In this document: one piece after another, positions 9,057 to 21,093 of the stretch
Position numbering within the stretch: position 1 is the stretch's first letter
Layout of the letters: the number at the start of each line of letters is the position of its first letter
From: Vitreoscilla sp.
Lineage (GTDB): Bacteria; Pseudomonadota; Gammaproteobacteria; Burkholderiales; Burkholderiaceae_C
Reading direction: 5' to 3'
Length of the DNA: 60,899 bases
Assembly: GCA_018780145.1 (NCBI GenBank)
Contig: JADMKA010000122.1
Coordinates: forward strand, 1-60,899
The notes under the pieces: model-generated
Databases searched by the model: none
Told to the model about the DNA's origin: nothing
What the model saw: only the letters and a program-made list of their open reading frames with translations
Translations under genes and position numbers: made by a program

Positions 9057-9374
9057 TCAAACCCCGCTCATCACGGCGTCCATGGCATCGCGCAACTCAC
9101 TGGCGTGGTCGGCCAGGCTGGATACGGCGTGACGCAGCAGTCGGGCGTCGATGCCAGCGGCCAGGTGTGGCTGCAAGGCCAGTACCTGCTCCTCGACGAC
9201 AAAGGTCGGTGCCAAGCGGTGAGGCACCTGTGTCAACGTGGCGCCTGCGCGCGACAAGGGCAACACCAGGCGGGTGCGCAAGTCCGCGAGAAGATTGCTC
9301 TGCACGTCAACGACGTAGGGAACCTGCTCACGGGAACGAGCGCTGGGGTTGGGGTAGATGTCGTACTGAGCCAT
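9057..9374 (-). CDS. CcdB family toxin
   Basis: A 105-residue CcdB-type toxin, a family that poisons DNA gyrase. It shows the family N-terminus (AQYDIYPNPSARSREQVPYVVDVQSNLL), the central RLVLPLSRAGA and the C-terminal helix ending MDAVMSGV; CcdB toxicity depends on the C-terminal residues, in E. coli Trp-Gly-Ile. The gene begins three bases after the antitoxin stop and must be cotranscribed with it. In classical ccd modules the antitoxin is also first. Confidence 0.9.
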   Translation of the reverse strand: MAQYDIYPNPSARSREQVPYVVDVQSNLLADLRTRLVLPLSRAGATLTQVPHRLAPTFVVEEQVLALQPHLAAGIDARLLRHAVSSLADHASELRDAMDAVMSGV

Positions 9375-9377
9375 GCA

Positions 9378-9638
9378 TCACCAGGTGCGAAGCTCGTCGC
9401 TCCACACGCCATGTGCGTCGAACTCGGCGTTCTGTGACGCAATCCAGCCAGCGTATTGGCTGCTGAATTGCTGGCGGCGTGCACGCGCGTTCTGCGGGGA
9501 CGTCAGGCGTTGATAGTCTGCATAGGACATCAGCACCGTGTCGGGCTGCCCGGCCTTTTCAACCACCACAGGCGCTTCCTTGGCCTGGAGGCAGAGGGCG
9601 CCGAATCGATTCTTGGCTTCGGTGGCGGTGACACGCAT
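9378..9638 (-). CDS. Hybrid antitoxin: Phd/YefM-like N-terminus with CcdA-like C-terminus
   Basis: Antitoxin for the adjacent CcdB. From the ATG at 9638 it has 86 residues. Residues 1-46 match Phd/YefM (MRVTATEAKNRFGALCLQAK, then VVVEKAGQPDTVLMSYADYQRL), the dimeric DNA-binding fold of phd antitoxins. Residues about 53-86 instead look like the CcdB-wrapping tail of CcdA (IASQNAEFDAHGVWSDELRTW). An earlier ATG at 9680 exists, but it overlaps a -10-like TAAAAT, so 9638 is preferred. The DNA-binding and toxin-binding halves appear to come from different families. Autoregulation through the palindrome at 9673-9689 is likely. Confidence 0.82.
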   Translation of the reverse strand: MRVTATEAKNRFGALCLQAKEAPVVVEKAGQPDTVLMSYADYQRLTSPQNARARRQQFSSQYAGWIASQNAEFDAHGVWSDELRTW

Positions 9639-9672
9639 GGTGGGGCTTTCGTGCGCGACCCGTCGCGCGGCA

Positions 9673-9689
9673 TTGGCCATTTTAGCCAA
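9673..9689 (-). promoter_or_regulatory. Probable antitoxin operator and -10 element
   Basis: Inverted repeat TTGGC-N7-GCCAA centred over a minus-strand TAAAAT (9679-9684) placed about 40 bp before the antitoxin ATG at 9638. The arrangement fits an autorepressed toxin-antitoxin promoter. No good -35 is visible at 17-18 bp. Confidence 0.45.
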
Positions 9690-9705
9690 CACCTGGCAGA
9701 GCCGA

Positions 9706-11265
9706 TCAGCCGTCCGCTCCCAGCCGCGCAGGCGAGAGGTAGTCCGCCAGGAACTCCTCGAAGGTCAGCGTCTCGGCGGCCTCGATCCTGCGCTGCTCGT
9801 CCAGCGAGGCAGCCGCCTCGGCGGCCCAGCGCGCGGGGGCCTCGGCATCCGGCAGGGGCCGTGCCAGCAACTGATCCCGCGTCTGCGCCGACCGGGCGTC
9901 GACGAAGGGCACGAACTCGCCGGCATGCTCGGCGCGCATGGCGGCCAGCACGCGCGCCGATGGCAGGCTGTCCAGGTCGGACAGCGATCGCTGCGCCGCG
10001 GCCAGGGCGTCGCGGTGAGCGGTGTCGCCGCTCAGCTCGTCCAGCAGGTGGGCGATGGGGCCGCACTGGTCCACCAGTTCGCCGGCCCAGTCGGTCAGGC
10101 GCACCGCGCGGCCACCGCGCTCCAGCGTCAGACCGGGCTCGCGGCCACGGGCGGCTGCGAGGTGCTGATTGCGCGCCAGCGCGGCGATCTCGTCGGGGCT
10201 GTCCGGCGGGCTGTCGCTCAGCAGGCAGTGCAGCAGGAAGACGTCGATGAAACGCGCCGTCGACGCGCCGATGCCGACCGGCTCGAACGGATCCAGATCC
10301 ATGCAGCGCACCTCGACGTACTCGACACCGCGTTCGCGCAACGCGTGCAGCGGCCGCTCGCCGGAGCGGATGGTGCGCTTGGGCCGGATGGTGCCGTAGA
10401 ACTCGTTTTCGATCTGCAGCAGGCTGGTCGACAGCTGCCGGTAGCCACCTTGTTCGTCACGCACGCCCAGCGCCTCGTAGGCCGGGTAGGGGCGGGTCAT
10501 GGCGTCCTGCAAGGAGGCCGCGTAGGTCTCCAGCCCGTTGTAGCTGACCGCCAGGCTGGACTGGGCATCGCTCTGGTAGCCGAGCCGGCCCATGCGAAGC
10601 GAGGTGGCGTGCGGCAGGTGCAGGGTGCGCGCACCCAGAGGCTGCAGCCCGTGCGGCTGCCCGGCCACGAAACTGCCGCAAACGGCGGGCGAGGCCCCGA
10701 ACAGCAACAGCAGCAGGAACGAGTGGCGACGGAAGTTGCGGATCAGGGCGAAGTACTCGTCGGTGCCGAGACCCGGAAGCGACCAGTTGTAGTGGATGCC
10801 CGAAATCGTCTGCATGCGCCGGCCATAGCGGTGCGACAGGCCCGTGCGGTAGACGGTCTTGGCGCGGCCGATGTTCGATGTGCCGTACTGGCCGATCGGG
10901 ATCTCGTTGTCCGGCGGCAGCACGCAGGGCATGCTGGACACCCACAGGCGCTCGGCGTCGATCGCGCGGTAGGTGGCCTGGTGGATCTCGGTCAGCTCCG
11001 CCAGGCAGCCTGCCACGCTGCCATGCACGCCGGTGATCAACTCGACCTGGGATTCGCTGAAATCGGTCGTGATGTGGGGGTGGGTCAGGGCCGATCCGAG
11101 CGCTGCCGGATGCGGCGTTCGCACCAGAGCGCCGCCCGGCTGAGCCCGCAGGCTTTCCTTCTCGATGCCGCGACGCATGCCGCGCAGGCGGTCGGGCGCC
11201 AGGGCCCGCAGGCGTTGGGTCAGAAGGGTCACGATGGTGGGGGTGGGTTCGACAGGGAGCGCCAT
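9706..11265 (-). CDS. gshA: Glutamate-cysteine ligase (type 1, proteobacterial)
   Basis: First, ATP-dependent step of glutathione synthesis: gamma-glutamylcysteine from Glu and Cys. The 519-residue length is right for the E. coli-type enzyme. Motifs include GIEKESLR (residues 33-40, ATP/Mg glutamates), TDFSESQVELIT, HYNWSLP and YGTIRPKR. The start ATG fits the homology. The gene is divergent from the peroxidase-P450-hydrolase fusion across 210 bp, and the toxin-antitoxin pair lies directly downstream on the same strand. A glutathione reductase gene is also present in the window at 37050-38420 but is not linked to it. Confidence 0.95.
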   Translation of the reverse strand: MALPVEPTPTIVTLLTQRLRALAPDRLRGMRRGIEKESLRAQPGGALVRTPHPAALGSALTHPHITTDFSESQVELITGVHGSVAGCLAELTEIHQATYRAIDAERLWVSSMPCVLPPDNEIPIGQYGTSNIGRAKTVYRTGLSHRYGRRMQTISGIHYNWSLPGLGTDEYFALIRNFRRHSFLLLLLFGASPAVCGSFVAGQPHGLQPLGARTLHLPHATSLRMGRLGYQSDAQSSLAVSYNGLETYAASLQDAMTRPYPAYEALGVRDEQGGYRQLSTSLLQIENEFYGTIRPKRTIRSGERPLHALRERGVEYVEVRCMDLDPFEPVGIGASTARFIDVFLLHCLLSDSPPDSPDEIAALARNQHLAAARGREPGLTLERGGRAVRLTDWAGELVDQCGPIAHLLDELSGDTAHRDALAAAQRSLSDLDSLPSARVLAAMRAEHAGEFVPFVDARSAQTRDQLLARPLPDAEAPARWAAEAAASLDEQRRIEAAETLTFEEFLADYLSPARLGADG

Positions 11266-11410
11266 TGGAAGGCAAATGCGTGACCGGAGCGTGGCAAGGG
11301 GGATTCGGGCTTGTGCTAGCCAAGAAACTATAGGCCACGCCGCCGATTCCCGCCCGATCCCCAGACATGAGGATGTTTAGGAGGGTTCGGATGCGGCCAC
11401 TCCGGGCCAT

Positions 11411-11430
11411 GCCTTGCGCCGCGCCAAGGC
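11411..11430 (+). other. Leader hairpin before the peroxidase-P450-hydrolase gene
   Basis: Perfect six-base stem GCCTTG/CAAGGC with an eight-base GC-rich loop, 46 bp upstream of the start codon at 11476. The 210-bp divergent region 11266-11475 otherwise shows no consensus promoter. The hairpin could affect translation, but evidence is limited to the inverted repeat. Confidence 0.35.
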
Positions 11431-11475
11431 GGCGGCACAGAATCATCTGGTAACACCGGCCTGGGGAGGAGCGGG

Positions 11476-14400
11476 ATGCGCAAGGAACTGATCGTCAAAT
11501 CCAAGACGCTGGTGGGCTCGACCGATCTGACGCTGCTGGCGCCAATGAAGCTGGGCCTGGTGCCGTCGCTCGATGCGGTGACCTACAAGACGCGCGTCAA
11601 GCGCCTGCTGAAGACGCTGAACCTGGGCCGCACCTCGGCGCACGAGTACGCGCTGCTGCGCCCCTTCTCCGACGCGGTGGAGCGCGTGGGCAAGATCCAG
11701 TCGGTGCGGGTGGCGGTGGTGGAGCCGGCCGATGGCGGGCGTGATCAGGTGCTGCTGGCGGTGACCTTCGACGGCACCTGGGAGTCCTACATCCGGGTGC
11801 TGTGGCAGAAGGTCGGCACGCTGCTGGATGTGATCTTCTGCAACACCGAGGGCTACGTCAGCGCCTACGACCACAGTTTCGACGAATGGGCGGCCTGGGT
11901 GCGCAGCGTGCAGATCGAGACCAACTTCTTCTATGGCATGCCCGGCCTGAGCGTGGACGACGTGCAGTACCTGCGCGGCGAGGAGCGCCGGCACCGGGCC
12001 GAGCCGGCGCGCCTCGTCGATCCGGCCGACCCCACCACGCTGCGCAGCGCCGACCTCGCCGCCACCCGTGCCAGCAACCAGACCGCCGAGGCGCAGGCCT
12101 GGGCGATGGCGCGCCACCTGTCGCCCGAGGCGGTGGCCGAGACGGTGCGCCTCGCCCTGCAATCCCTCTCGGTGGTGCATCGCCTGACGGCGCTCTACCT
12201 GCCCGGCGAGGACGATGGCCGCTACCTGCACCGCGCGGCGCGTGAGCTGCTGCTGGAGTTCGTCCGCCTGAAGGAGGACACCCACCTGATCGACGGCCTG
12301 CTGGTGGCGGCCCGGAAGCGCTTCGCCGAACCGCTGGATTGGCTCTGGGCGCTGCCATCGGGCCGGGAGCTGGTGGCCCCCGCAACCGGCATCCCCACCG
12401 GCGCCCTCGCCAACGTGCAGGGCGGCATCGTGCACCCCTATGCACGCTCCACGCATGGCTGCCTGTTGATGCTGGGCTTCGAGACGCCCGGCGCGTTGGC
12501 CAATTTCATCGCGGCCTTCCCGCCCACGCCGGAGGGCGCGGCGAAGTCGGTCGGAGACACCTGCCTCAACATCGCGTTCACGCTGGAGGGCCTGCGCCTG
12601 GCCGGCTTGAGCGAGTCGCGGCTCGGCTACTTCCCGACCGAGTTCCGTGAAGGCATGGCCGCGCGCGCCAGCATGCTGGGAGACTTCCGCCACAACCACC
12701 CGCGGCGCTGGCGCATGCCGCTGCGTTGGCCGAAGCTGGAGGCGACCGACGACCACCAATCCGGCGAGGAGCACATCGAGTGGGCCGCGGTGCACCTGGT
12801 CGTCCAGTTGCGCACCGACGCCGGTGCGTCCAGCGACCTGCCGCTCACCGACGCCAAGCACCCCTTGCGCGCCGACATCGCGGCCATCGAGGCGCTGCCG
12901 GGCGTGACGCTGCTGAGCGCGCAGCCCATGGTCCGCCGGTACTTCGAGCTCCAGGACGCCAAGGGACAGAAGGCACGCGAGATCGTCCGCGAGCACTTCG
13001 GTTTTGCTGATGGCTTGTCCGACCCCGATTTCGACGCCAGCACGCCGGGCGATGTCTACGACAACCGCACGCCGCTGGGCGAGGTGCTGCTCGGCCGCGC
13101 GAACCAGGCCGATGCGGCGCCGGACGTGCGCTGGTCGGCGGACCAGCGCGCCCTGCTGTCCGACGGCAGCTTCCTGGTGGTTCGCAAGCTGCGGCAGGAT
13201 GTGCCGGCCCTCGAGGCGGCGGTCGCCCAGGCGGTGGGCGCCACGGGTCTGCCCCGCGACAAGATCCTGGCCAAGATGATGGGGCGCGGGCTCGATGGCG
13301 AGCCGCTGATGCCGGTGCGAGATCCACAGTTGCAGCCCAATGATTTCGACTACGGTGCCGACGCGCAAGGGCAACGCTGCCCGTTCCACTCGCATGTCCG
13401 CCGCGCCAACCCGCGCAGCCTCGCCGACCCCGAGGTGCCCATGCCGGCGGGCGGCCGCTTTCCCCGCCTGGTGCGGCGTGGCATGTCCTACGGCCCGCGT
13501 GTCGGCACCTCGGCGGCGGCGCAGGAGCGCGGCCTGGTCTTCATGGCCTACAACGCGAGCATCGCCGAGCAGTTCGAGGTGGTGCAGCGCTGGCTGACCG
13601 GCGGCAACAGCAGCGGCGGCTTCTCGGGCCAGAGCGACCCCTTCCTGGGCGTGGCGGAGATCGGCCGCAAGCGGCACTTCCGGTTCGAGGAGGGCGGGCG
13701 CACGCACTCGATCGCGCTGGACGGCAACGAGATGCCACTGCAGGGCGCGCGCCCGTTCGTGCGGCTCGAATGGGGGGCCTATCTCTTCGTGCCATCGCTC
13801 AGCGCGCTGAAGCGGCTGGGGGCGGAGGCGGCTGCCGTGTCCGCGGCGCCCGCGCCGGTGTGGTCCGCTGACCGGGGCCTGCGCCACATCGAGGCGCTGG
13901 AGGCCCGGCAGGTGGCCGAAGGCGAGGAGGCGGCGCGCCTGGGTTGGAAGGCCCTTCTGGAAGACCCGCAGTCGCAGGAGGATTTCGTCGCCGCGGATGC
14001 CTGGGCCGCGATCCGCGAGCACCGCGGGGGCGCGTTGCGCACACCCTATGGCGTGCTGGTGGCCGATCGTGCGCTGGTGCTGCAAGCCTTTGCCAACCGC
14101 GCCGGCGATTTCAGCGTCAGCGGCTACCACGAGCGCATGCTGGGCTCGCTGGGCGAGATCTACCTGGGGCTCGACGACCAGGGCCCCGGCTGCCCGTACC
14201 GCGCGCAATCCGATGCCAGCAACCGGGCGATCGGCGAGATCGGTGTCAATCAGGCCTTCGACCTGGCCCGTGGCCTGGCCCGCGACGCGCTGGCCGGCAT
14301 GGTGCGCGACGAGTTCAACCTGGCCGCGATCACCGGGCGCGGGCGGTGGGAACTCAACCTGAACCTGAAGGAGATCGTCGATCCGGTGATCCAGGGCTTG

Positions 14401-16044
14401 TGCCAGGCCTGGTTCGGCCTGCCCGAGGGGGCCGGCGAGTTCACGCCCGGGCCGGCGCGCTGGGATTGGGACCCGGCCACGCCGCCGCGCTGCCCCGGGA
14501 ACTACGGCGCGCCATCGCGCTACCTCTTCCAGCCCCAACCGGGTGCCGAGGTGGCGGCCTACGGTCGGCTCTACGGCCAGCGGCTCACCGAGGCCATGAC
14601 GGCCTACGTCCGCCGCTGCCAGACGGTCGGCCCGGCGCCCACCGCACCGGTGGCCCAGGCCATCTTCGGCATGCCCGGTGCCAGCGCGGACCCGGGCCTG
14701 GTGGCCCGCACCATGGTGGGGGCGATGATGGGCTTCATCCCCACGGTGGACGGCACGTTGCGGCTGGTGCTCAACGAGTGGCTGCGTGATGGCGACTTCT
14801 GGTCGCTGCGGGCGCAGCTGGGGCAGGACGCGTCGAAGAACACCTGGGCGCGCGTCGAGCCGCTGGTCGCGCCGGTGCTCGCCCGGGCGATGCAGCTGCG
14901 CCCGATGCCGGAGCTGGTGTGGCGCACGGCGCGCCGCACCACCACCCTGGGCCCGGTCACCGTGCAGGCCGGCGAGCGGGTGGTGCTGGCCATCGTCTCG
15001 GCCACGCAGCAGGCCTTGGCGGAGGGGCGGCCCGATCTCTCTCCCATCTTCGGCGGCTACCGGGAGGCCGAACCGTTCTCGCACGCCTGCCCGGGCTATG
15101 CAGCGGCCATGGGGGTGCTGCTGGGCACGCTCACCGCCGTGCTCGAAGCCAACTGGACGATGCGCCCGAGCCCGGCCCCGCTGGCCTTGACGCTGGAGGG
15201 CGCCTTGCCGGTGGCGGCGGCGGCGGCCGCGCCGTCCGGCAGGCCGGCCTATACCCCCTCCCAGAAGGCCCCTCCGGCCCGACGGGGGGTGCTGCTGGCC
15301 GAGGGCGACTCCTGGTTCGACTTCTGGATGCGGGAAGGCAAGCCGCTGTCGTCCAATTTGCTGCGGCCGCTGGACGAGCTGCATGGCTTCGACATCGTCG
15401 AGGTGGCCGATGCGGGCGACACCCTGGAGGCGATGACCCATCCGCGCCAGCTCGACGCCTTTGCCGTTCAGCTGCGGCGCCTCAAGGGCATGGGCCGGCG
15501 CCCGGTGGGCATCCTGCTGTCGGGCGGCGGCAACGATGTCGTGCACCCGATGCTGGCCAGCCTGCTGAACCCGGCGGCGGGCGCGGCAGGTGTGCTGAAC
15601 ACCGCGGCGGTGACGGCGTTCATCGACACCCTGGAGCGCCACCTGCGGATCGTGCTGGGCCGGTTCGTCGAGGAGCGGCGACGCCACTTCGACGACAAGC
15701 CGCCTATCCTGCTGCACGGCTACGACCACCCGGTGCCCGATGGCCGATGGCTGTTCGGCCCCCCGAAGAACCCGTTCTCGTGGCTCTACAGCAGCTTCAA
15801 GTCAAAGGGCTGGGGCGACGATGCCCAGGCGGCCCTGCGCCAGCAGGCGATGAAGGACCTGATCGACGCGCTCAACCGAAGGCAGATCAAGGTAGCGGCC
15901 AGTTTCCCGAACGTGCACCATGTGGACCTGCGCGGGACCTTGGCGCAGGCCTTTCAAGACCACCGCGACGGCTGGGCCAACGAACTCCACCCCAGCGATG
16001 CGGGCTATGCCCTGCTGGCTGAGAAGATCGCCGCCGCTATCTAG
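11476..16044 (+). CDS. DyP-type peroxidase / cytochrome P450-like / SGNH hydrolase triple fusion
   Basis: A 1522-residue cytoplasmic protein (no signal peptide) with strong ribosome site GGGGAGGAG. Residues 1-290 are an unassigned region with a ferredoxin-like stretch (LLAVTFDGTWESYI). Residues 305-775 are a DyP peroxidase: GFADG motif 509-513, proximal heme His640 in SHVRRANPR, RRGMSYG at 667 and ERGLVFMAYNASIAEQFE. Residues 800-1230 look like a P450, with heme-ligand Cys1205 in FSHACPGYAAAMG and an I-helix-like VGAMMGFIPTVDG. The EXXR position reads RAMQ (1137-1140). Residues 1270-1522 are an SGNH hydrolase: GDSW (Ser1279), GGGND (1350-1354), NELHP (His1505). The order suggests oxidation of a lipid-like substrate followed by ester cleavage, by analogy to peroxidase-P450 oxylipin enzymes; this is inference. 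Its stop overlaps that of the convergent gene (CTAG). Confidence 0.85.
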   Translation: MRKELIVKSKTLVGSTDLTLLAPMKLGLVPSLDAVTYKTRVKRLLKTLNLGRTSAHEYALLRPFSDAVERVGKIQSVRVAVVEPADGGRDQVLLAVTFDGTWESYIRVLWQKVGTLLDVIFCNTEGYVSAYDHSFDEWAAWVRSVQIETNFFYGMPGLSVDDVQYLRGEERRHRAEPARLVDPADPTTLRSADLAATRASNQTAEAQAWAMARHLSPEAVAETVRLALQSLSVVHRLTALYLPGEDDGRYLHRAARELLLEFVRLKEDTHLIDGLLVAARKRFAEPLDWLWALPSGRELVAPATGIPTGALANVQGGIVHPYARSTHGCLLMLGFETPGALANFIAAFPPTPEGAAKSVGDTCLNIAFTLEGLRLAGLSESRLGYFPTEFREGMAARASMLGDFRHNHPRRWRMPLRWPKLEATDDHQSGEEHIEWAAVHLVVQLRTDAGASSDLPLTDAKHPLRADIAAIEALPGVTLLSAQPMVRRYFELQDAKGQKAREIVREHFGFADGLSDPDFDASTPGDVYDNRTPLGEVLLGRANQADAAPDVRWSADQRALLSDGSFLVVRKLRQDVPALEAAVAQAVGATGLPRDKILAKMMGRGLDGEPLMPVRDPQLQPNDFDYGADAQGQRCPFHSHVRRANPRSLADPEVPMPAGGRFPRLVRRGMSYGPRVGTSAAAQERGLVFMAYNASIAEQFEVVQRWLTGGNSSGGFSGQSDPFLGVAEIGRKRHFRFEEGGRTHSIALDGNEMPLQGARPFVRLEWGAYLFVPSLSALKRLGAEAAAVSAAPAPVWSADRGLRHIEALEARQVAEGEEAARLGWKALLEDPQSQEDFVAADAWAAIREHRGGALRTPYGVLVADRALVLQAFANRAGDFSVSGYHERMLGSLGEIYLGLDDQGPGCPYRAQSDASNRAIGEIGVNQAFDLARGLARDALAGMVRDEFNLAAITGRGRWELNLNLKEIVDPVIQGLCQAWFGLPEGAGEFTPGPARWDWDPATPPRCPGNYGAPSRYLFQPQPGAEVAAYGRLYGQRLTEAMTAYVRRCQTVGPAPTAPVAQAIFGMPGASADPGLVARTMVGAMMGFIPTVDGTLRLVLNEWLRDGDFWSLRAQLGQDASKNTWARVEPLVAPVLARAMQLRPMPELVWRTARRTTTLGPVTVQAGERVVLAIVSATQQALAEGRPDLSPIFGGYREAEPFSHACPGYAAAMGVLLGTLTAVLEANWTMRPSPAPLALTLEGALPVAAAAAAPSGRPAYTPSQKAPPARRGVLLAEGDSWFDFWMREGKPLSSNLLRPLDELHGFDIVEVADAGDTLEAMTHPRQLDAFAVQLRRLKGMGRRPVGILLSGGGNDVVHPMLASLLNPAAGAAGVLNTAAVTAFIDTLERHLRIVLGRFVEERRRHFDDKPPILLHGYDHPVPDGRWLFGPPKNPFSWLYSSFKSKGWGDDAQAALRQQAMKDLIDALNRRQIKVAASFPNVHHVDLRGTLAQAFQDHRDGWANELHPSDAGYALLAEKIAAAI

Positions 16045-18995
16045 AGGCGTTGGCGCAACTCTTGCACCTGGGCCACGTGCCAGCGCATGGTGAGGGACTC
16101 AAAGGCCTCGGCGGCGTGGTCGAGGCGGGTGCGCGCCTCGTGGTGGCGTCCGGCTCGCCAGGCGAGCTCGCCCCGGCACAGCTCGTTGCCGGCCTGCTCG
16201 TGCGGGGAGCTGCGGGCCGCGGCGGCGGTGTCGGCACGGGCCAGGTAGTGCGCGGCGCGGTCGGTCTGCCCGGCCGCCGCCGATGCACGGGCCAGCGCCC
16301 GGCAACCGAAGGCCTCGCCCAGGCGGTCGCGCTGGCGGGCGCGGAGAAACAGGCGCGCCGCGTGGCGGCGTGCCTCGGCCTCGCGGCCCAGCGCCAGGTT
16401 CGCATCGACCAGGAAGCCGTAGTTCAGCGAGGTCACCAGGCCGCCACCGCGCGCTTCGATCCACGAGGTGCCGTCGCGGATGGCCTGCAGGTCCTCGGCG
16501 CGGTGGTGCAGCACCCATAGCGCGTGACCGCGCAGCACCCGGCTCATGGCCAGCAGCTGGCGGCTCTTCACCTGCTCGGCGATGCGCACCGAGCCGTCGG
16601 CAATGTCGGCCGCCTCCTGCCAGTGGCCCTGCCATTGCCAGACCGCACTGATCCAGTTGCGCACCGAGCTGGCCACCTCGTGCACGGTGTCGCCCAACAG
16701 GTGCATGGCCTCGGCGAAGCACTCGTCGGCCAGGTCGAAGCGGCCCTGGTCACCGAGGGCGCCGCCCTGGCAGGCGAGCGTGTAGGCCGAGCCCACGGCA
16801 ATGCTGCTGCCGGGCTTGCGCTGCTTGCGCTTGGTGTCGATGGCGGCCTCGAACAGTGGCAACGCGCCGGCATAGTCGCAGGCGGTGGCCAGCACCTGGC
16901 CCAGCGTGGCCCGCACCTGGGCGGCCAGCCGCTCGTCGCCCAGTTGCAGGGCCAGCGCCAGCGCGGCCTCGCAATGCCCGCGCGCCGGCAGGGCCCGGCC
17001 CTTGGCGTAGAGGAGGTAGCCCAGCCAGTACTCGGCGCGGGCAATGGTCTCGACATCGCCGCTGCGCCGGGCCAGGGCCAGGCCACGCTCGAAGGTGCCA
17101 ACACCGTCGGCCAGGCCCAGGTGGTCGAACACACAGGCCATGCCCAGCCGGCCGGCCACGGCGCACCAGTGGCGCTGCGCCTCGGGGGTGTTCGGCCGCA
17201 GCGCGTCCAGGGCGGCGAGGGCGGCGGTGTACTGGTGCCGGGCGCGGTCCAGCGCGCGCGCCGCAGCGGCCTTGTCGCCTGCCAATTCGGCGTAGCGTGC
17301 GGCTTCGGCATGCAGCCCGCCCGCAGCAGCGTGGTAGGCGAGGGCCTCGTAGCTGTCCTCCGGCACCACCTGTCCGGCGTGCCCGGTCAGCGCACCCACG
17401 ATGCGCCGGTGCATGGCGCGGCGTGCATGCAGGCCCACGGCTTCGTAGACCACGTCGCGCGTGATGCCGTGCTTAAAGCGCAGCGTCCCCGCCTGCTCGG
17501 CCGGGAACAGCAGATCCTGGGCGGCCAGTGACTGCACCAGCGGGTCGTGTTCGCCATAGCCAGTGAGGCGCTCCAACAACCAGGCCGGCACCACGTTGCC
17601 GATCACCGCCGCGGCGCGCACGATGTCGGCCTGGGCCAGCGCCAAGCGGCCCACGCGCGACTCGATCAGCGCGCTCAGCCAGGCCGCGCTGCCGTGCAGG
17701 CTCTCTGGCGGGTGCTCGGCGCCCGCGGCGCTGGCCGAGTGGCACAGCTCCTCGATGAACAGCGGGTTGCCGCCGGCGTGTCGGTGGATCTCGGCCACGA
17801 CGAAGGGATCGGCACCCGGCAGCAGGTGGCTCATCGCCTGCTGGGCCTCGGCCAGGCTCAACGGAGCCAGCTCGATGGGTGGCACCGGTGCGCTGGCCAA
17901 GCTGTCGCCGCCGCCGGTGCGCAGCGCGGCGAGCACGAAGATCGGCCGGGGCAGGGCGAGGATGGCGTCCAGCAGTTGCTGGCTCGCGTCGTCGGCCCAC
18001 TGCCAGTCGTCGATCACCAGCACCAGCGGGCGCTCGACGGCCAGGCGTTCGAGCCAGGCCAGCAGGGCGGCACCGCGCCGGCCCGGGTCGCCTTGGGCGG
18101 CCTCGGCTTCGGGCAGGCTGCGCAGCATCTGCATGAAGGGCTGCAGCGGCTCGGCACTGAGGTAGCTCTCGCAGTAGCCGCGCAGCACGCGGAACCCGGC
18201 GACCGGGGTTCGACGCAGCAACTCCTCGATCAGGCGGGTCTTGCCGACACCCGGGCCACCGGCCACCGCGGCGCACTGCGGCCGGCCCTGCAGCGTCGCT
18301 TGCATCTGGCTGCCGAGCGTGGCGAGCACGGTGTCGCGGCCGACAAACGGCGCCAGGCCGCGCAGCGTGCGCGCCTCGTAGCGGCGCTGCACCGGGGCCC
18401 GGCCCAGCACGCGGAAGGCGGCCACGGGGGCAGGCCGGCCCTTCAGGCTCAGCAACTGGCGTGGGCCGGTGGTGAAGAAGTGGGCTTCGGGGCCCAGGGT
18501 CTCCTCGCTGACGACAATCTCGCCGCGCTCGGCGCGGTCCGACAGGCGGGCGGCGGTGTTGGGCACGCTGCCCAGCAGCTCGAAGCGGCCGCGCTCGACG
18601 TCGCCGTCCGACACGAACACCAGGCCGGCGTGGATGCCGGAGTGCAGCCCCAGGCTGCCGGCGCGAACGACGCTGCCGTCGACCTCGATGCGCGACACCG
18701 CGGCGTGCAGCTCCAGGGCGGCCTCGGTGGCCCGGCGCCCGTCGTCCTCGCGCGCTTCGGGGTAGCCGAAGATGGCCAGCATGCCGTCGCCCTGCAGGCG
18801 GGCGATGCGCCCGCCGTGGCGCGGAACGATCTCGCGGCACAGCGCGCGCATGGCCCCCAGCATCTCGGCGTAGTGCTCGGCCTCCAGCAGGTCGCCCAGG
18901 CGGGTGGATTCGCACAGGTCGGCGAACAGCACGGTGAGGTAGCGCCGCCCGCCGGTGGCATCGGTGTCGGCTTGAAGTTCGGGCACCTGGCTCAT
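16041..18995 (-). CDS. Class III adenylate/guanylate cyclase with ATPase and TPR regulatory domains
   Basis: A 984-residue cytoplasmic signalling protein. Residues 18-195 form a class III nucleotidyl cyclase with metal-binding Asp26 (LFADLCEST) and Asp70 (LQGDGMLAIFGYP) and transition-state residues Asn146/Arg150 (PNTAAR). Residues about 215-500 form a STAND-like AAA ATPase with Walker A GGPGVGKT (246-253) and Walker B LVLVIDDWQWAD. The rest is TPR-like helical repeats. I start at ATG 18995, where the domain begins; a frame 20 residues longer overlaps the upstream gene. It lies 31 bp after the radical SAM gene and is probably cotranscribed. The product, cAMP or cGMP, cannot be told. Confidence 0.9.
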   Translation of the reverse strand: MSQVPELQADTDATGGRRYLTVLFADLCESTRLGDLLEAEHYAEMLGAMRALCREIVPRHGGRIARLQGDGMLAIFGYPEAREDDGRRATEAALELHAAVSRIEVDGSVVRAGSLGLHSGIHAGLVFVSDGDVERGRFELLGSVPNTAARLSDRAERGEIVVSEETLGPEAHFFTTGPRQLLSLKGRPAPVAAFRVLGRAPVQRRYEARTLRGLAPFVGRDTVLATLGSQMQATLQGRPQCAAVAGGPGVGKTRLIEELLRRTPVAGFRVLRGYCESYLSAEPLQPFMQMLRSLPEAEAAQGDPGRRGAALLAWLERLAVERPLVLVIDDWQWADDASQQLLDAILALPRPIFVLAALRTGGGDSLASAPVPPIELAPLSLAEAQQAMSHLLPGADPFVVAEIHRHAGGNPLFIEELCHSASAAGAEHPPESLHGSAAWLSALIESRVGRLALAQADIVRAAAVIGNVVPAWLLERLTGYGEHDPLVQSLAAQDLLFPAEQAGTLRFKHGITRDVVYEAVGLHARRAMHRRIVGALTGHAGQVVPEDSYEALAYHAAAGGLHAEAARYAELAGDKAAAARALDRARHQYTAALAALDALRPNTPEAQRHWCAVAGRLGMACVFDHLGLADGVGTFERGLALARRSGDVETIARAEYWLGYLLYAKGRALPARGHCEAALALALQLGDERLAAQVRATLGQVLATACDYAGALPLFEAAIDTKRKQRKPGSSIAVGSAYTLACQGGALGDQGRFDLADECFAEAMHLLGDTVHEVASSVRNWISAVWQWQGHWQEAADIADGSVRIAEQVKSRQLLAMSRVLRGHALWVLHHRAEDLQAIRDGTSWIEARGGGLVTSLNYGFLVDANLALGREAEARRHAARLFLRARQRDRLGEAFGCRALARASAAAGQTDRAAHYLARADTAAAARSSPHEQAGNELCRGELAWRAGRHHEARTRLDHAAEAFESLTMRWHVAQVQELRQRL

Positions 18996-19026
18996 GACGC
19001 GCCAGTGTAGGGGCGCCGGCCCCGGA

Positions 19027-20946
19027 TCAGGCGCTTGTTTGCAGGGCGCGGGCAATGCGGTGCCGTGCGACGGTGGTCTTGGGCACCTTGACGCGAAGCT
19101 CGGTGAACCAGCCGCGCACGTCCTGTTCCAGGCCGATGCCGTGCATGTAGTTGTAGATCGCCTTCTTCAGGCCGCGGCCCAGGGCGTCGTGGTCCACCCC
19201 GGTGGGGTCGATGAAGCCGACGTCGTTCCTGGCGAACGGCGAGGGCGGCAGCGGCAGCAGCTGCACGCCGTACTGCTCCGGGTGCTGGCCCACCGGCGAA
19301 TGCACGGTGCAGGCGAAGCGGTGAAAGAAGCCGCTGTGGATGCAGCCGTTCTCGAACAGCTGGCGCACGTACTCCAGCGCGTCCACCGTGTCCTGCACCG
19401 TCTGCGTCGGGAAGCCGTACATCAGGTAGGCGTGGACCAGCACGCCGGCATCCGCAAAGGCCTTGGTGACCCGCGCCACCTGCTCCACCGAGACGCCCTT
19501 CTTCATCAGCGCCAGCAGCCGGTCCGAGGCCACCTCCAGGCCACCGGAAATGGCGATGCAGCCGCTGTCGGCCAACTGCTGGCACAGCGCCGGGCTGAAG
19601 GATTTCTCGAAGCGGATGTTGCCCCACCAGGAGATGTCCACCTGGCGTTGCACCAGCTCGGCGGCCAAGGCCTTCAGCGCCTTGGGCGGAGCGGCCTCGT
19701 CGACGAAGTGGAAGCCGGTCTGCCCGGTCTCGGCGACGATGGCCTCGATGCGGTCCACCAGCAGCGTGGCCGAGGCGCCCTCGTAGCGCGAGATGTAGTC
19801 CAGGCTGACGTCGCAGAAGCTGCACTTCTTCCAGTAGCAGCCCTGGGCCACGGTGAGCTTGTTCCAGCGGCCGTCGCTCCACAGCCGGTTCATCGGGTTG
19901 AGCATGTCCAGCAGCGACAGGTAGCTGCCCAGCGGCAGGCCGTCCCAGGTGGGGGTGCCGACCTCGGCAAAGGCGATGTCGGGCTCGACCAGGTTCACGT
20001 ACTTCACCGCGCCGTCGGCGTCGCGCACGAAGCTGCGCACCAGGCGTTGCACCGAGCGCCTGCCCTGCAGGTGCTCCAGCAGCGCCAGCAGCGGGCGCTC
20101 GCCCGCGTCGAGCGTGACGACATCGAAGTGGTCGAAGACACGCGGCTCGGCCAGCTCGCGCAGCTCGGTGTTGACGAAGCCGCCACCCAGCACGGTGGTG
20201 ACGCCGGGGAACTCGGCCTTGATGGTCTGGGCGATGCGGAAGGCCGCGTAGACCGCACCGGGGAAGGGCACCGACACCAGCACCACGTTCGGGCGGTGGC
20301 GCGCCATCGCCTCGCGGGTCAGCGCGCGCAAGGTCTCGTCGACCAGGTTCAAGGGCGCCGCCAGGGCCGCCGCCAGCGGCTCGAAGGTCGGCTGGCTGGT
20401 GGCCAGCGATTCGGCGTAGCGAACGAACTCGAAGCGCGGGTCCACCGCGTCGCGCAGCACGTCGGCCAGGTCGTTCAGGTACAGCGTGGCCAGGTGGCGT
20501 GCGCGGTCCTGCAGGCCCAGCGCGCCGAAGGCCCAGGCCAGCGGGTCACCGCCGTCTTCGTCCACGTAGGCGTCCAGCGAGCGGAAGCGCTCGCCCTCGG
20601 GCAGGAAGGCCCGGGTGTTGATGCGGTGGGCCAGCGTCGGGTCGCGCCCTTGCAGGAAGGCGATCACGCGCTCGATGGTGGCGGCGTAGCGCCCGTGGGC
20701 GGCCGCGAAGTGCCGCGTCTGCGCGGTGCGACCGGCCTCGGGCAGCGCCTGCACGGCGCCGTGCAGCGACGCCAGGCCGGTGCGCGAGAACAGCCGCAGC
20801 ATCAGCGCCAGGGCCAGGTCCTCCTGCACCGCGTCGACCCCGCGCGAGCGCAGAAAACCGGTCAGGTAGGCGGTGGAGGGGTAGGGCGTGTTGAGCTGCG
20901 TCATCGGCGGGATGACGGAGAGCACGCGGAAGGCCGGGGCTGTCAT
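19027..20946 (-). CDS. B12-binding-type radical SAM protein
   Basis: A 639-residue enzyme: an N-terminal cobalamin-binding-like Rossmann region (residues about 1-290, LPF/GGGFVNTEL) that lacks a clear DxHxxG motif, then a radical SAM core. The cluster motif is CYWKKCSFC with Cys370, Cys375 and Cys378, that is CX4CX2C, one residue longer than the classic CX3CX2C. Such spacing is seen in some B12-binding radical SAM proteins. Further blocks are FHFVDEAAPP and ISGGLEVASDRLL. No small precursor peptide gene is visible nearby, so the substrate is unknown. It is upstream of the cyclase-ATPase gene on the same strand and divergent from a secreted protein. Confidence 0.87.
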   Translation of the reverse strand: MTAPAFRVLSVIPPMTQLNTPYPSTAYLTGFLRSRGVDAVQEDLALALMLRLFSRTGLASLHGAVQALPEAGRTAQTRHFAAAHGRYAATIERVIAFLQGRDPTLAHRINTRAFLPEGERFRSLDAYVDEDGGDPLAWAFGALGLQDRARHLATLYLNDLADVLRDAVDPRFEFVRYAESLATSQPTFEPLAAALAAPLNLVDETLRALTREAMARHRPNVVLVSVPFPGAVYAAFRIAQTIKAEFPGVTTVLGGGFVNTELRELAEPRVFDHFDVVTLDAGERPLLALLEHLQGRRSVQRLVRSFVRDADGAVKYVNLVEPDIAFAEVGTPTWDGLPLGSYLSLLDMLNPMNRLWSDGRWNKLTVAQGCYWKKCSFCDVSLDYISRYEGASATLLVDRIEAIVAETGQTGFHFVDEAAPPKALKALAAELVQRQVDISWWGNIRFEKSFSPALCQQLADSGCIAISGGLEVASDRLLALMKKGVSVEQVARVTKAFADAGVLVHAYLMYGFPTQTVQDTVDALEYVRQLFENGCIHSGFFHRFACTVHSPVGQHPEQYGVQLLPLPPSPFARNDVGFIDPTGVDHDALGRGLKKAIYNYMHGIGLEQDVRGWFTELRVKVPKTTVARHRIARALQTSA

Positions 20947-21093
20947 GTGGGAGCCGATTGTCGTTGGCGCGCGCAGGCCGCGTCGGATTCGCCCCATGAA
21001 ACCGGACATCGGCCAGACCCCTAGGGGCCGGGATGGCGAGGCCGGCGGCGCAATCGCACACTGCGCAGGCTCCTCGACTCACCGGAGACAGCT

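Follow-up and report, generated by a model that had tools for sequence, protein, structure and literature searches.

The gene at the centre of this locus raises two questions: whether a DyP peroxidase, a P450-like module and an SGNH hydrolase really reside in one bacterial protein, as the original prediction had read from the letters, and, if they do, what such a protein might be for. In the window, by which we mean the whole stretch of 60,899 nucleotides that was analysed, the frame does run through 1522 residues with no internal stop, from an ATG preceded by GGAGG at 11465 (Table 1), and each motif named beforehand lies where it had been placed and occurs once: GFADG (residues 509-513) and HSHVRRANPR (638-647) in the DyP part, HACPG (1203-1207) in the P450-like part, and GDSW (1277-1280), GGGND (1350-1354) and NELHP (from 1502) in the SGNH part. 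Misassembly of the frame was considered and rejected, and is very unlikely, since relatives in other assemblies (L029-L032) have the same domain order and match in one frame over residues 1-1511 or more, at 37.5-40.2% identity. The product is predicted to be a soluble multidomain enzyme with two heme sites.

Table 1. Features of the fusion gene and its partner, with positions in the window and the basis of each assignment.
Feature	Position	Strand	Basis
Fusion gene, 1522 aa: N-domain, DyP, P450-like, SGNH	11476..16044	+	Open frame, motifs, profile matches
N-terminal domain, residues 1-300	11476..12375	+	Without Pfam match; residues 66-168 match L004
DyP peroxidase domain, residues ~305-790	12388..13845	+	Profiles, motifs, structural match
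P450-fold domain, residues ~800-1245	13873..15210	+	Predicted fold, Cys loop
SGNH hydrolase domain, residues 1277-1513	15304..16014	+	PF13472; GDSW, GGGND, NELHP
Partner gene: class III cyclase (PF00211), STAND AAA_16 (PF13191), TPR	16041..19055	-	Tail-to-tail, 4-bp overlap with fusion gene

The single protein that had been predicted is there, and what that reading missed is that it belongs to a protein family and that it has a constant partner gene encoding a cyclase-STAND-TPR protein. Among 120 related genomes the DyP-P450 fusion occurs in 10, the window's included, with SGNH in the same frame in 5 of these, in a separate gene 10 bp downstream in 1, and lacking in 4. Of 399 same-family genomes sampled, 34 carry the P450 domain, in frames of 1003-2010 aa, one of them a fragment match. 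A pattern scan taking one genome per species gave at least 61 loci, a lower bound because the pattern misses members with HACSGY; by record titles these are mostly Burkholderiales, with Bradyrhizobium, Vineibacter and Sandarakinorhabdus also present. DyP lies in the same frame as the P450 in 57/61 (a script counted 56, and L038 was added because its two listed frames form a single one), and the other four comprise three loci cut by the contig start and one (L070) with no DyP within 10 kb. Two alignments were drawn from this collection: A6 holds the window and 59 of the 61 loci (a near-copy, L050, and a fragment, L097, were left out), and A7 the window and 51 of the 53 loci with both parts (L050 and L094 left out).

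Several loci depart from the common layout. In Schlegelella koreensis (L044:7484-12303) the N-domain, DyP-P450 and SGNH occupy three consecutive frames, with the cyclase divergent upstream, an arrangement that is either a real split or a nonsense change. The fusion on plasmid pDB-1 of Sphingopyxis sp. DBS4 (L009:8941-18034) lacks the N-domain and part of the DyP; it adjoins a Tn3 transposase, which indicates that the module can ride mobile DNA, and an annotated Crp/Fnr gene lies beside the cyclase. On the P450 tree, two metagenome-assembled genomes, L078 (titled Methylotenera) and L058 (titled Bordetella parapertussis), cluster with Roseateles puraquae and Ideonella alba; both are likely misbinned or mislabelled.

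When the segments of the protein were searched separately, as the original prediction had proposed, the DyP and SGNH parts matched profiles, and residues 1-300 and 791-1245 gave no Pfam match. The predicted order of domains holds; the layout differs in that residues 1-300 form a domain of their own and the P450 lacks both ExxR and the acid of the acid-alcohol pair (see below). Within the N-domain, residues 66-168 match the N-terminal region of L004, itself a long DyP (by hhalign, with probability 93.6 and E 2e-7), and a comparison of the N-domain with the longest frames of L019-L022 gave no match.

The DyP and SGNH identities were both borne out by profiles above their cut-offs. For the DyP, TIGR01413 matches residues 436-778 (E 7.4e-30, 104.4 bits, cut-off 100.5) and PF20628 matches at E 1.2e-7 (32.1 bits, cut-off 20); a PF21105 match stays below cut-off. 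Besides GFADG, the DyP signature comprises His640, RANPR ending at 647 and RRG from 667. Asp512 is kept in 51/52 aligned rows, and His640, Arg647 and Arg667 in 52/52; we take these residues to be the Asp of the DyP GXXDG motif, the proximal His and the Arg near the heme. A model of residues 1-800 (pLDDT 87.3) finds its best PDB match in the Deinococcus DyP 8re3 (E 3.4e-24, TM 0.78 on the target). By profile, heme residues and fold alike, this domain belongs to the DyP superfamily.

The P450-like module is the most difficult part to recognise. Besides its lack of a Pfam match, a single-sequence PDB search with residues 791-1245 found nothing, PF00067 recognises 0/11 and 0/60 family members, and a PF00067 search of the window's own genome returns other loci only and not the fusion. 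Profile searches against the PDB come closer: with 11 relatives, 13 of 14 matches are to CYP51, at E of only 0.24-0.39 and with a non-P450 ranked first at 0.029, and with 60 relatives, 30/30 matches are to sequences that, as far as their names tell, are P450s, all weak (E 0.096-2.9) and with the Cys loop in register. Structure prediction, which the original prediction had set as its own refutation test, gave a P450 fold: the AlphaFold model of this part has pLDDT 95.4 and pTM 0.93, and Foldseek returned 1626 PDB matches at E <= 0.001, of which the 50 listed are all P450s (one of them, OleP, presumably so), with a best E of 8.2e-10 and TM on the query of 0.54-0.64 among those 50. The structural test being decisive for fold, we accept the P450 fold, and a chance resemblance of motifs is rejected by the same search. 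Residues ~800-1245 are, by their modelled structure, a highly diverged P450, and if this is right, a P450 family invisible to Pfam would be defined here.

Which features of a P450 this family retains bears on how it might work. The Cys loop, FGG-R-HACPGY at 1192-1208, contains Cys1205, invariant in 11/11 rows of alignment A2, a set chosen without the Cys-loop pattern; the 60/60 conservation of HACPGY in A6 partly reflects how its rows were gathered, since the scan required this motif, and members found outside it include two with HACSGY and the Sphingopyxis one with HACPAR. PxPxxxWR is invariant in the domain and FGGxR strongly kept. At the CYP51-aligned positions of the K-helix region (1137-1150) ExxR is not kept (Glu 5/60, Arg 7/60). 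In the I-helix motif (1086-1094), the CYP51-aligned acid position 1089 is Pro in 58/60 rows and Ala in 2/60, so that the acid of the acid-alcohol pair is absent, and position 1088 is Pro or Leu in 53/60. The alcohol partner, Thr1090, is kept in 57/60 rows, and O2 chemistry may therefore still apply.

In the SGNH domain, PF13472 matches at E 2.6e-8 (35 bits, cut-off 32.9) and the GDS, GGND and HP blocks are present in 14/14 rows. The block-V Asp (DxxH) is not found in the window, which reads NELH there; the position is Asn in 10/14 rows and Asp in 4/14, and with Asn the hydrolase may use a Ser-His dyad or be weak. The joining of an acyl hydrolase to the fusion is modular. Of the 61 loci, 7 have SGNH within the fusion, 5 have it as a neighbouring gene (gaps of -4 to 36 bp) and 1 has it at a distance; another 8 have a patatin-like gene immediately upstream of the fusion and no SGNH; and neither is found beside the fusion in 41/61, some of these being cut by contig ends. 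A fixed SGNH function in the family was rejected, as most loci lack it. The 13 rows with SGNH in or beside the fusion all belong to a single 16-member clade (100/98), whose other 3 rows lack it; fused and adjacent arrangements are intermixed there, so SGNH was joined or split off more than once. Patatin rows fall on both sides of the midpoint root. The patatin-like proteins carry GxSxG and DGG in 7/7 examined (L047 left out). PF01734 matches the four patatin-like genes that entered the neighbour scan at 1e-5 or below, that of L049 scores 27.4 bits, just under the Pfam cut-off of 27.7, and two of the proteins searched against NCBIfam gave no match. We read SGNH and patatin-like proteins as alternative sources of a single type of helper, namely an acyl hydrolase.

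What stays with the fusion is the cyclase-STAND-TPR gene. The five relatives scanned have a partner of the same make-up, and in the larger collection it is present in 56/61 loci, convergent within 150 bp in 40, convergent further off in 12 (4 of these pairs being separated by the SGNH gene itself), in tandem in 3 and upstream in 1. Incomplete copies are found in L055 and L075, where the contig ends, and in L094. The remaining 5/61 have a full-length cyclase ortholog elsewhere in the genome, at 49-51% identity. Among the 120 relatives, the genomes with a close ortholog (E < 1e-100) are precisely the 10 with the fusion, the strongest match in any other genome being 2e-49; the hypergeometric value for this co-presence is 8.6e-15, a figure that ignores kinship and for which only some of the first-look candidates in each genome were scored. 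Chance adjacency was rejected, given this matching presence and the one full-length copy in the window's own genome. As orientation changes while linkage is kept, function rather than mere inheritance of gene order is indicated, and the fusion and the cyclase-STAND-TPR gene are a conserved two-gene module. In Vineibacter terrae (L070:9728-11101 and 10999-14295) a separate 457-aa P450-like gene is convergent with the cyclase, and from this locus the P450-cyclase pair may be the core of the module. A further copy of the cyclase domain, short but close, is present in one of the fusion genomes (G334:C77:120776-121411; 47% identity over residues 29-242).

The cyclase keeps the metal-binding residues Asp46 and Asp90 in 64/67 rows (the other 3 being gaps) and the Asn-Arg pair in somewhat fewer (Asn166 55/67, Arg170 54/67), the 67 rows including near-copies of the same loci. 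TIGR03903 matches it far below its cut-off, and the PADLOC models for the Pycsar cyclase PycC match the cyclase domain only (residues 34-185, best E 5.9e-15).

Neighbouring genes were assessed in a scan (A8) that took in 112 of the 169 genes listed; the list itself had been drawn up without 12 loci, genes above 1000 aa and genes overlapping the fusion. Families that recur beside the fusion comprise regulators, MFS transporters and patatin, with no recurring biosynthetic genes among them; Crp-like and LuxR-like matches each occur in 11/61 loci, and ferredoxin or reductase families are absent from the 25 commonest of 114 neighbour families. A protein of ~417 aa (RRSWLDGFMAY...) lies beside the cyclase in 16/61 loci (e.g. 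L062:14385-15638) and has no Pfam, NCBIfam or PADLOC match. In the window the pair has housekeeping genes around it, gshA (9706-11265) being one; just beyond gshA, upstream of the fusion, are genes for a CcdB-like toxin (PF01845) and a Phd/YefM-like antitoxin (PF02604) (9057-9692, minus strand), and after the cyclase gene comes one for a radical SAM / B12-binding protein (19027-21009, minus strand), which, judging by the gene clusters, is not conserved in the other loci.

The architecture, its conservation, the modular hydrolase and the gene linkage are demonstrated; from them we infer the substrate, product and signalling role of the fusion. Our preferred reading, held tentatively and, as a whole chain, at a little under even likelihood, is a self-sufficient oxylipin-type synthase coupled to cyclic-nucleotide signalling, operating along the lines of the fungal dioxygenase-P450 and animal COX-P450 routes to hormone-like lipids. 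The acyl hydrolase would free or trim an acyl substrate; the DyP heme would oxidise this substrate, either to a hydroperoxide or using one; the P450 heme would rearrange the peroxide, with no reductase needed; and the cyclase-STAND protein would read the product, or the oxidative state that the product reports, and answer via a cyclic nucleotide, with a neighbouring Crp-type regulator taking part in some genomes. The cyclase is the likeliest candidate for reading the product. Counting against this account, 41/61 loci show no acyl hydrolase beside the fusion, DyPs are not known to act as fatty-acid dioxygenases, and Burkholderiales are not known for polyunsaturated fats. A lipid pathway is a plausible candidate, and gains support from the 5 loci in which SGNH is a separate neighbouring gene and the 8 others with a patatin-like gene upstream. 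The original prediction had made acyl release the last step, which is not supported as a fixed order since SGNH is optional in the family; hydrolysis may equally precede oxidation. That the P450 would be self-sufficient is suggested by loss of the O2-activating acid together with the lack of a reductase among the 25 commonest neighbour families. CYP152 peroxygenases replace the acid-alcohol pair too, with Arg245-Pro246 in OleT (available part of PMC5377825), and fungal dioxygenase-P450 partners are self-sufficient, 8-AOS having H(Q/A)C at the Cys where HAC stands here (available part of PMC13049297).

The same set of enzymes can be read without a lipid signal. They might tailor or build another kind of small molecule (aromatic, terpenoid or peptide-derived), the hydrolase removing an acyl or ester group and the cyclase regulating the pathway. 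This would suit the dyes and lignin-type aromatics given as DyP substrates in the available part of PMC8230527, the breadth of P450s and SGNH hydrolases, and the 41 loci in which no hydrolase was found beside the fusion; against it, regulators, MFS transporters and patatin recur as neighbours rather than biosynthetic genes, and the patatin-like and SGNH genes point to acyl lipids, and we regard it as unlikely. An explanation closer to the preferred one in its parts is peroxide detoxification or sensing, in which the heme sites would reduce or isomerise membrane-derived hydroperoxides cut free by the hydrolase and the cyclase-STAND protein would report stress, with no dedicated signal. It draws on the same anatomy of hydrolase, peroxidase and peroxide-type P450, and stress-type regulators (the LuxR-like and Crp-like matches) are found nearby. 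Peroxide repair, however, is usually the task of small, widespread enzymes, and a specialised fusion that is found in 34/399 family genomes and goes with one cyclase ortholog has more the look of a dedicated circuit; detoxification too seems to us an improbable account of the module.

Two further explanations change the role of one component. The P450-like domain might have ceased to be an enzyme and serve instead as a sensor that binds heme or a ligand, or as a structural scaffold, leaving only the DyP and the hydrolase catalytic, as its loss of ExxR, its invisibility to PF00067 and its occurrence alone with the cyclase in L070 would allow; the Cys loop, the invariant PxPxxxWR and the strongly kept FGGxR argue for a working enzyme, and some P450s function without ExxR; we give a non-catalytic domain little credence. 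Alternatively, the STAND-cyclase might sense infection in the manner of Pycsar, with the fusion as an oxidative effector of an anti-phage or abortive-infection module. STAND ATPases are found in immunity and the PycC models do match, yet that match is confined to the cyclase domain, neither the fusion nor the patatin-like protein (nor the 417-aa neighbour) has a PADLOC match, no Pycsar-type effector was noticed among the recurrent neighbour families (judged without the effector's own model), and the pair is located among housekeeping genes. A known defence system was on these PADLOC grounds rejected for the fusion, and a defence role as such appears very improbable.

Returning to the oxylipin-type synthase, its consequences, if true, would reach beyond this locus. 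A peroxidase-P450 fusion would have arisen at least twice from unrelated peroxidases, which would make the chemistry, rather than common ancestry, the driver of fusion, and bacteria would possess a lipid-mediator route. Synthase and candidate receptor-cyclase would also lie side by side in one locus, making what bacterial STAND-cyclases sense directly testable. The gene linkage hints at an unrecognised bacterial signalling circuit; a bolder proposal, which we consider doubtful, is that bacteria have here assembled from unrelated components an equivalent of the eicosanoid circuit of animals, in which hydrolase, DyP and P450 in one chain would make a lipid mediator and the obligate cyclase-STAND-TPR partner would translate it into a cyclic-nucleotide signal to Crp-type regulators.

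Comparison with known systems, as the available parts of the cited papers describe them, sets these features in context. One close likeness is to the fungal psi-factor-producing and other dioxygenase-P450 fusions (CYP6001-6005; linoleate diol, allene oxide and epoxy alcohol synthases), which share an N-terminal peroxidase-type heme domain and a C-terminal P450 in one chain, the P450 being of a self-sufficient kind with an HxC loop (PMC13049297, PMC5919972). The original prediction had drawn this comparison while noting a different peroxidase family, and it stands: the first heme domain here is a DyP, theirs a peroxidase-cyclooxygenase. The fusion described here is moreover bacterial; it has an N-domain in addition, its hydrolase (SGNH or patatin-like) is modular and a cyclase gene is linked to it, and the likeness looks convergent. 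The oomycete CYP5619 fusions likewise join a P450 to a heme peroxidase/dioxygenase, but in the opposite domain order, with ExxR present and with another peroxidase family (PMC5919972). OleT and its CYP152 kin also lack the monooxygenase-type acid-alcohol pair, implying use of peroxide and not of O2 with a reductase (PMC5377825); their carboxylate-binding Arg is not seen here, where Pro is kept at the pair and position 1088 is mostly Pro or Leu, and their Cys loop and sequence are unlike those of this domain, which is also fused to a DyP.

The DyP domain itself resembles, in sequence and fold, the DyPs of Deinococcus radiodurans (8re3), Anabaena (AnaPX, 5c2i) and Amycolatopsis (DyP2, 4g2c), which we take to be class V (C/D) peroxidases and which are stand-alone enzymes. 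In function, a bacterial parallel would be the oleate diol synthase system of Pseudomonas aeruginosa, where a fatty acid is oxygenated by a pair of heme proteins to give a product that signals (available parts of PMC4496055 and PMC5155153); those are two separate proteins of the di-heme cytochrome c peroxidase type, with neither a P450 nor a DyP. Among the titles and abstract openings of the best literature matches we found no description of a DyP-P450 fusion. Peroxidase-P450 fusion as such is known; what appears new here is its construction on a different peroxidase superfamily and its tie to a cyclase.
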